Of a DNA stretch of 6,100 nucleotides, positions 4,424 through 6,100 are shown in pieces. This DNA comes from a bacterium (lineage in GTDB: Bacteria > Coprothermobacterota > Coprothermobacteria > Coprothermobacterales > JAADFF01). The stretch spans positions 1 to 6,100 of the forward strand of contig JAMORD010000120.1 in assembly GCA_027063755.1 (NCBI GenBank), in the 5' to 3' direction. A program made the position numbers and the translations under genes. The stretch's first letter is position 1. The number at the start of each line of letters is the position of its first letter. The notes under the pieces are model-generated. The model saw only the letters and a program-made list of their open reading frames with translations. It searched no databases and was not told where the DNA came from.

Positions 4424-5068
4424 ATGGCACTGACAAATGTGACTCCAAACCGAATGACCCTTCTACGTCTAAAGAGACGCTTGAAGATGGCCAAGAGGGG
4501 GCACAAACTTTTAAAAGATAAGTTAGAGGGTCTCCGTAAGGAATTTATGACATTGATTGATGAATATAAATCGTTAAAGGACCGTGTTACCAAACAAATG
4601 GAAACCATAGAAACATATATGGCTATGGCCGATGCTGCCTCATCCGATAAGGCTATAGAAAGAATGCGCACAGAAAGCAAGGTATCTCAAACTGTTGAGG
4701 CCTCTGTACGCTATGTTCTGTCTATTCCTATTCCGTCTTACAAACTGACGGAAAAAGAGATAAGCCTTGTATACCCAACACTATTTGTATCAAGTGATAT
4801 GGACCTTGCTCTCAGTGAATATGTGAAACTTTTAGAGGATATTATCAGATTAGCTGTTGTTGAAAAAGCACTCCGTATCTTGGCCGAAGAAATGGAGAAA
4901 ACAAAGAGAAGGGTCAATGCACTGGAATACACAATTATACCTCAGACAGAAGAGGCCATTAAGATGATAGAGCTCCGCCTTGACGAGATGGAAAGGAGCC
5001 ATATTGTAAGGCTTATGAAGATAAAAGAGACTCTTGCCAAAAAAGAAGGAGGGGTGCGTAGTGCTTAG
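4424..5068 (+). CDS. atpD: V/A-type ATPase subunit D (central shaft)
   Basis: This 214-residue subunit D (NtpD) forms the coiled-coil axle turning inside the A3B3 ring, the functional analogue of F-type gamma. The N-terminal helix carries the family signature NVTPNRMTLLRLKRRLKMA and then RGHKLLKDK (residues 5-33). A variable middle segment follows at about 68-125. The C-terminal helix has the second signature, KRRVNALEYTIIP followed by EEAIKMIELRLDEMER (160-191), and a basic tail. Both long helices needed for the antiparallel coiled coil are present, and the length matches the family. The ATG starts 3 bases after the subunit B stop with a strong ribosome site. The gene overlaps the following small gene by 8 bases. 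Confidence 0.97.
   Translation: MALTNVTPNRMTLLRLKRRLKMAKRGHKLLKDKLEGLRKEFMTLIDEYKSLKDRVTKQMETIETYMAMADAASSDKAIERMRTESKVSQTVEASVRYVLSIPIPSYKLTEKEISLVYPTLFVSSDMDLALSEYVKLLEDIIRLAVVEKALRILAEEMEKTKRRVNALEYTIIPQTEEAIKMIELRLDEMERSHIVRLMKIKETLAKKEGGVRSA
5046..5054 (+). promoter_or_regulatory. Ribosome binding site that fixes the GTG start of the small gene
   Basis: AAGGAGGGG lies 6 bases before the GTG at 5061, within the end of subunit D. Its strength and spacing favour GTG 5061 over the earlier in-frame TTG at 5034, which would place this purine run inside the coding sequence. Confidence 0.7.
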
Positions 5069-5357
5069 TTTAGAAGATGTTATTGCTTCTACGAAAAGGC
5101 TCAAGGCATTAGCCAAACAGGATACTCTCAAGTATCCTGAAGGTTCCGACGAATACAATGCCGCAAAGATTCGCCATAAGATGTACTCCGAATGGGTTGA
5201 TAGACTTGAAGAGGGAAAGGAACCTCTTGTTGACCTTGTTGAAGAGGTCAAAAAAGCCTATGCCGAGCTTAAGGAAAAAGAGCACCTATCTCTTGAGGAA
5301 AAAGCACGCAAAGAAGCTTTATACGAATTTCTCCTTATCAACGGTATAGAACTGTGA
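5061..5357 (+). CDS. Small charged helical protein of unknown function, last gene of the ATPase operon
   Basis: This is a 98-residue protein that I do not recognise. It starts at GTG 5061, overlaps the subunit D stop by 8 bases, and has an excellent ribosome site. It lies before the operon terminator, so it is almost certainly transcribed and translationally coupled with D. It is rich in Glu and Lys, has no Cys, no signal peptide and no membrane segment. It looks all-helical: LSLEDVIASTKRLKALAKQ (2-20), then a KYPEGSDEY loop (24-32), a helix containing KIRHKMYSEWVDRLEEG (36-52), a helix LVDLVEEVKKAYAELKEK (56-73), and a last helix LSLEEKARKEALYEFLL (76-92) ending in NGIEL. In Enterococcus hirae a small gene, ntpH, also follows ntpD, but I see no sequence basis for equating them. 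It may be a cytoplasmic assembly factor, stalk partner or regulator of the ATPase. That is inferred from position only. Confidence 0.85.
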   Translation: MLSLEDVIASTKRLKALAKQDTLKYPEGSDEYNAAKIRHKMYSEWVDRLEEGKEPLVDLVEEVKKAYAELKEKEHLSLEEKARKEALYEFLLINGIEL

Positions 5358-5381
5358 AACTATTGGGGGATTTTATCTTCG

Positions 5382-5411
5382 GGCGGGGCATGTGTCCCGC
5401 CTTTTATTTTT
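5382..5411 (+). terminator. Rho-independent terminator of the ATPase operon
   Basis: GGCGGGGC (5382-5389) pairs with GTCCCGCC (5394-5401), giving an 8-bp stem with one G-U pair and the loop ATGT. TTTTATTTTT follows directly at 5402-5411. It lies 24 bases after the last stop codon, which marks the end of the operon. Confidence 0.93.
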
Positions 5412-5681: not shown

Positions 5682-6100
5682 TTATTCGTGGCTTTCTTTT
5701 TCTGCTGTGACATAAGCCTCGTCGTCAAGGTAAAGGTCTCTTTCCCATTCTACTTTACCGTCAAATATTGGTTTAGGATCACCTATGAGTTCTACACGGT
5801 ACATGTTAGATGTATAGAAGTATGCATCGGGGAAATTAACCTTTACAGGTGCCTCTGTGTACACTCTGAAGTTGAGATCTTCTTTTACGATATCCTCGTT
5901 TTCAAGAGCATAGTCGCTGAATCTTCTGATGATATCTGTGATAACAAGATTCATGTCAAGCAGATTTCTCTGAATCTGATGCCACTTCTTACGGGAGGCC
6001 TCAATGTGTGTAAGACCAAAGTATCCTGCAGAGCCTTCACCTTTAAGACCCTGAATACATCTGGATAAGAACAGGCTGATCCCCTTGACTGTTTCAACAG
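5682..6100 (-). CDS. Unrecognised protein, C-terminal fragment (5' end outside window)
   Basis: The - strand is open from the right edge (first full codon 6098-6096) to TAA at 5684-5682, giving 138 residues. I do not recognise the family. The internal ATG at 5954 is not the start, because the frame continues 48 codons upstream without a stop. What can be seen is a helix-prone N-terminal part (VETVKGISLFLSR, then a glycine-rich KGEGSAGYFGL loop) and a long helix HIEASRKKWHQIQRNLLDM followed by VITDIIRRFSDYAL. A strand-rich segment comes next (NFRVYTEAPVKVNFPDAYFY, then YRVELIG), and the protein ends with an acidic tail (WERDLYLDDEAYVTAEKESHE minus a few residues). There is one Cys and no clear membrane segment. 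Codon use looks like that of the ATPase genes, with no sign of recent transfer. It is convergent with the ATPase operon and not part of it. Confidence 0.75.
   Translation of the reverse strand, partial: VETVKGISLFLSRCIQGLKGEGSAGYFGLTHIEASRKKWHQIQRNLLDMNLVITDIIRRFSDYALENEDIVKEDLNFRVYTEAPVKVNFPDAYFYTSNMYRVELIGDPKPIFDGKVEWERDLYLDDEAYVTAEKESHE

Follow-up and report, generated by a model that had tools for sequence, protein, structure and literature searches.

The stretch of DNA analysed here, hereafter the window (6,100 nucleotides), derives from a small draft genome (1.5 Mb) related to Coprothermobacter species and, within its own genus, to a MAG carrying the NCBI name 'Dictyoglomota bacterium'. 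It bears a V-type ATPase operon in which subunits F, A and D were matched by family models, while subunit B was identified through its clear relatives. The Pfam matches of subunits C (positions 161-955; E = 1.8e-6, under the curated cut-off) and F (942-1244; E = 3.7e-8) are weak, indicating that this ATPase is divergent from the curated ones. The subunit D gene, atpD (4424-5068, plus strand; Pfam PF01813, E = 1.8e-51), is coupled to a downstream gene of 98 codons, referred to as gene X (5061-5357, plus strand), which starts with GTG and was delineated from its open reading frame, homology and predicted fold as a member of an uncatalogued four-helix family. The two genes share 8 bases (5061-5068, plus strand), the TAG stop of atpD lying at 5066-5068, and a Shine-Dalgarno sequence AGGAGG is found on the same strand at 5047-5052, 8 bases 5′ of the GTG. 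The ATPase operon has its intrinsic terminator, with a T tail behind it, at 5381-5402 (plus strand), 23 bases past the gene X stop, and a similar hairpin occurs 3′ of the orthologue in a relative of the same genus (locus L026). Convergent with the operon, a gene fragment at 5682-6098 on the minus strand encodes the C-terminal part of the branched-chain polyamine synthase BpsA (Pfam PF01861, E = 3.8e-31), which fits a thermophile.

Gene X is under purifying selection. Comparison with the L026 orthologue revealed 61 nucleotide differences, 50 of them at codon position 3, and codon changes comprising 45 synonymous and 7 nonsynonymous ones. Each of the seven Coprothermobacterales genomes sequenced, which represent two families, has an orthologue (from 92% down to 41% identity) situated directly after atpD, and in every one of these the X start overlaps or abuts the atpD stop. 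A small frame overlapping another gene may be suspected of being spurious, or an artefact of read-through from atpD; here that suspicion is already refuted by conservation and has next to no probability, given a family conserved in three phyla, the third-position substitution bias, a ribosome site of its own and a confident predicted fold.

An AlphaFold2 model computed from an alignment of six rows (the window and related-locus sequences) shows four helices spanning residues 4-24, 30-51, 56-71 and 78-93, with a pLDDT of 95.0 and a pTM of 0.85. Protein X, whose net charge in the window is -5, is taken to be a small cytosolic protein with this predicted fold. Searches of Pfam and NCBIfam returned no V-ATPase subunit family for X at E ≤ 1 and none for 44 members of its family at E ≤ 0.01, so that its identity with a known subunit (A, B, C, D, E, F, G/H, I or K, including the coiled-coil subunits E, G and H) was rejected. 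No model in either collection describes the X family, which is uncatalogued. Scattered weak matches were obtained with PADLOC and PHROGs, and sequence matches in the PDB, most of them to helical chains such as designed repeats, were judged compositional. Fold searches with the model gave nothing well above the helical background, the best Foldseek match to the PDB having E = 0.28 and the best match of the VIA fold search (Z 7.7, rmsd 4.1, 93 aligned residues) lying within that background. Several points of the original prediction are thereby borne out, namely a helix-rich, non-chance gene of 98 residues that matches no known subunit, shares 8 bases with the end of atpD behind a strong ribosome site, is followed by the operon terminator and is, by position, translationally coupled to atpD.

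The first lead to a wider family was a weak full-length match to X (E 0.0075) in a sequence called Thermus-like from its composition and neighbours; every genome of that genus carries an X homologue. A profile built only from Coprothermobacterales retrieved Dictyoglomota proteins with E of about 1e-6 and gave a 99-column alignment with a Thermus profile (probability 92.5%). The reverse profile, containing Dictyoglomota and Deinococcota only, recovered the window ORF (5.9e-8) and its counterparts in genomes G001 (1.9e-9) and G003 (5.0e-10), with no further match in these three genomes; the Coprothermobacter genomes G002 and G004-G006 were not reported by it, though mixed or own-clade profiles find them. 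As judged from these profile comparisons, X is homologous over its full length to the Deinococcota and Dictyoglomota proteins. Across the three phyla, six residues of X (A18, A35, R38, Y42, A86 and F90) never vary, a pattern consistent with a single molecular role in common. Other weak whole-genome matches of the 98-residue query lay mostly inside much longer reading frames or contained stops and were taken as chance, as was a match in genome G242 to a frame of 801 residues.

Among the Deinococcota, 101 genomes out of 111 carry a family member, as do 6 out of 7 among the Dictyoglomota, these phylum names being a reading of control genomes, gene content and context rather than database labels. 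Profile searches across a wide range of other bacterial families did not find it. The usual, though not universal, setting of the gene is beside a type-4 uracil-DNA glycosylase gene, and this adjacency was not used to decide who belongs to the family. The original prediction had proposed a profile search for a family match: no curated family emerged, and homologous proteins were found in these two phyla. In two Deinococcota genomes (G132 and G142) a second, divergent copy of X resides away from the type-4 uracil-DNA glycosylase (UDG) gene discussed below (L123, 2998-3393; L128, 2986-3396). One study groups Coprothermobacterota and Dictyoglomota as a thermophilic clade to which Deinococcota may also belong (PMC10356935), and the distribution of X would then be simply explained by descent with loss. 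Literature searches on the Coprothermobacter V-ATPase and on guessed Thermus and Deinococcus locus tags yielded nothing useful.

Type-4 UDG is an Fe-S enzyme of base-excision repair. In 30 of the 35 Deinococcota genomes checked, the X homologue is encoded directly upstream of this gene and on the same strand, UDG being the sole constant adjacent same-strand neighbour; in the other five X lies away from it. All six Dictyoglomota carriers show the order UDG - X - dnaE, again with same-strand adjacency, so that the order of X and UDG is opposite between the two phyla. Neither a V-ATPase B nor a D gene was present beside X homologues from outside Coprothermobacterales in the loci examined. In Thermus (G027:C4 39635-40000 and 61939-62505; L008, L213) the V-ATPase D gene lies some 22-25 kb from the X-UDG pair, a proximity that is probably incidental and is not shared by other Deinococcota such as G094.

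These neighbourhoods bear on another account, in which X would be a housekeeping protein related neither to the ATPase nor to UDG and both positions would have been kept by descent within phyla. That one family occurs in three contexts (beside atpD, beside UDG and beside neither) agrees with this account, as does the frequency with which descent alone conserves gene order within a phylum. That X should adjoin UDG on the same strand in two phyla, in opposite orders and with different outer neighbours, would however be unlikely by chance, with odds that for one gene among about 2,000 can be put at roughly 1 in 1,000. A UDG tree gave no sign of transfer of the X-UDG pair between Deinococcota and Dictyoglomota, a result with which an ancestral pair is compatible. 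We consider an unrelated function possible but distinctly less than probable. Within Coprothermobacterales, type-4 UDG is encoded in all genomes, which makes a UDG-linked role of X possible there; the gene is not beside X and is instead flanked by genes named here, by their sequences and not through a family search, as pnp-like and RNase J-like.

The proposal that the rotary ATPase has in X a dedicated factor, whether for assembly, inhibition or another accessory role, fared less well. Subunit D was found in 155 of 386 sampled genomes, most of them without the X family; in the sister class of the same phylum atpD is followed by a gamma-carbonic-anhydrase-like gene, without X; and in Deinococcota D occurs without X in G126 and G169, both nearly complete genomes. 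The reverse case, G088, in which X but no D match was found, was left uncounted because this genome is fragmented and D is present in a congener. Small reading frames that follow D were compared at about 50 other loci, and none is related to X. The expectation that homologues always follow atpD held in all seven Coprothermobacterales genomes and failed in Deinococcota and Dictyoglomota, where UDG is the neighbour; at phylum level, homologues thus sit in unrelated contexts, the outcome named beforehand as counting against a dedicated factor. With the UDG context elsewhere and most V-ATPase genomes devoid of X, the ATPase link of X amounts to an operon position peculiar to a single order, and X is probably not a dedicated part of the ATPase.

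A narrower version, in which an old family member was recruited in Coprothermobacterales as a lineage-specific V-ATPase accessory acting in assembly, stalk binding or inhibition, draws on the invariable contact with atpD in two families and on the similar divergence of the two proteins between these families (about 41-45% identity for X and 38-40% for D). Coprothermobacterales members also form one clade (support 0.993), are more acidic (net charge -5 to -8, where most Deinococcota proteins have about 0 to +2) and have no basic C-terminal tail, features that would fit a changed partner. An ATPase role acquired in this lineage alone is possible; still, the family elsewhere has no ATPase neighbours, the presence of V-ATPases in all three carrier phyla is a weak argument when D is so common in the sample, and a generic helix bundle matches no known ATPase factor, an absence that is not proof. 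On balance we hold this recruitment to be unlikely.

The explanation that we tentatively prefer, although it falls short of an even chance, is that X is an ancestral small helical accessory protein tied to UDG or to replication and repair, whose role has been kept in Coprothermobacterales behind atpD; our reserve reflects the nature of the functional evidence, which is gene neighbourhood. The ancestral protein may have been a non-enzymatic adaptor or stabiliser working with type-4 UDG or, more loosely, in replication and repair, and the same molecular role would persist in Coprothermobacterales. There, the atpD overlap and strong ribosome site would secure steady co-expression of X with an abundant housekeeping complex of which it is not a part. 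Confidence in this accessory role is lowered by the location of UDG elsewhere in Coprothermobacterales, without X beside it, and the five Deinococcota genomes in which the two genes are apart count against it as well. In addition, the position after atpD, invariant across seven genomes and two families, has lasted long for an arbitrary one, and since UDG is widespread, a partnership with it gives no account of the confinement of X to three phyla. A composite history, with X as the type-4 UDG partner in Deinococcota and Dictyoglomota and one branch recruited in Coprothermobacterales as a V-ATPase regulatory or assembly factor, seems to us quite improbable.

Taken together, an orphan reading frame now belongs to a family whose members are nearly universal in Thermus and Deinococcus, both tractable models, offering a route to asking whether type-4 UDG has a conserved partner, and the case cautions against taking an operon position in a single lineage as function.

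Among known systems, NtpH and other small genes occur downstream of atpD in V-ATPase operons, as in the ntp operon of Enterococcus hirae. X resembles NtpH-type genes in its position after a bacterial V-ATPase D gene, a likeness that carries no claim of membership; a literature search on ntpH returned no text. Closer counterparts are the family's own members. The uncharacterised protein of about 118-122 residues encoded upstream of type-4 UDG in Thermus and its relatives is homologous across the whole of X, with which it shares the six invariant residues and about 20-31% identity, but is encoded in a UDG operon rather than with atpD and has, in addition, a basic tail at the C terminus and an insert of 4 residues. 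The uncharacterised Dictyoglomota protein (99 residues), likewise homologous, resembles X in its length and in having no basic tail, while differing in its operon, which contains UDG and DNA polymerase III alpha, and in sequence, at about 26% identity.
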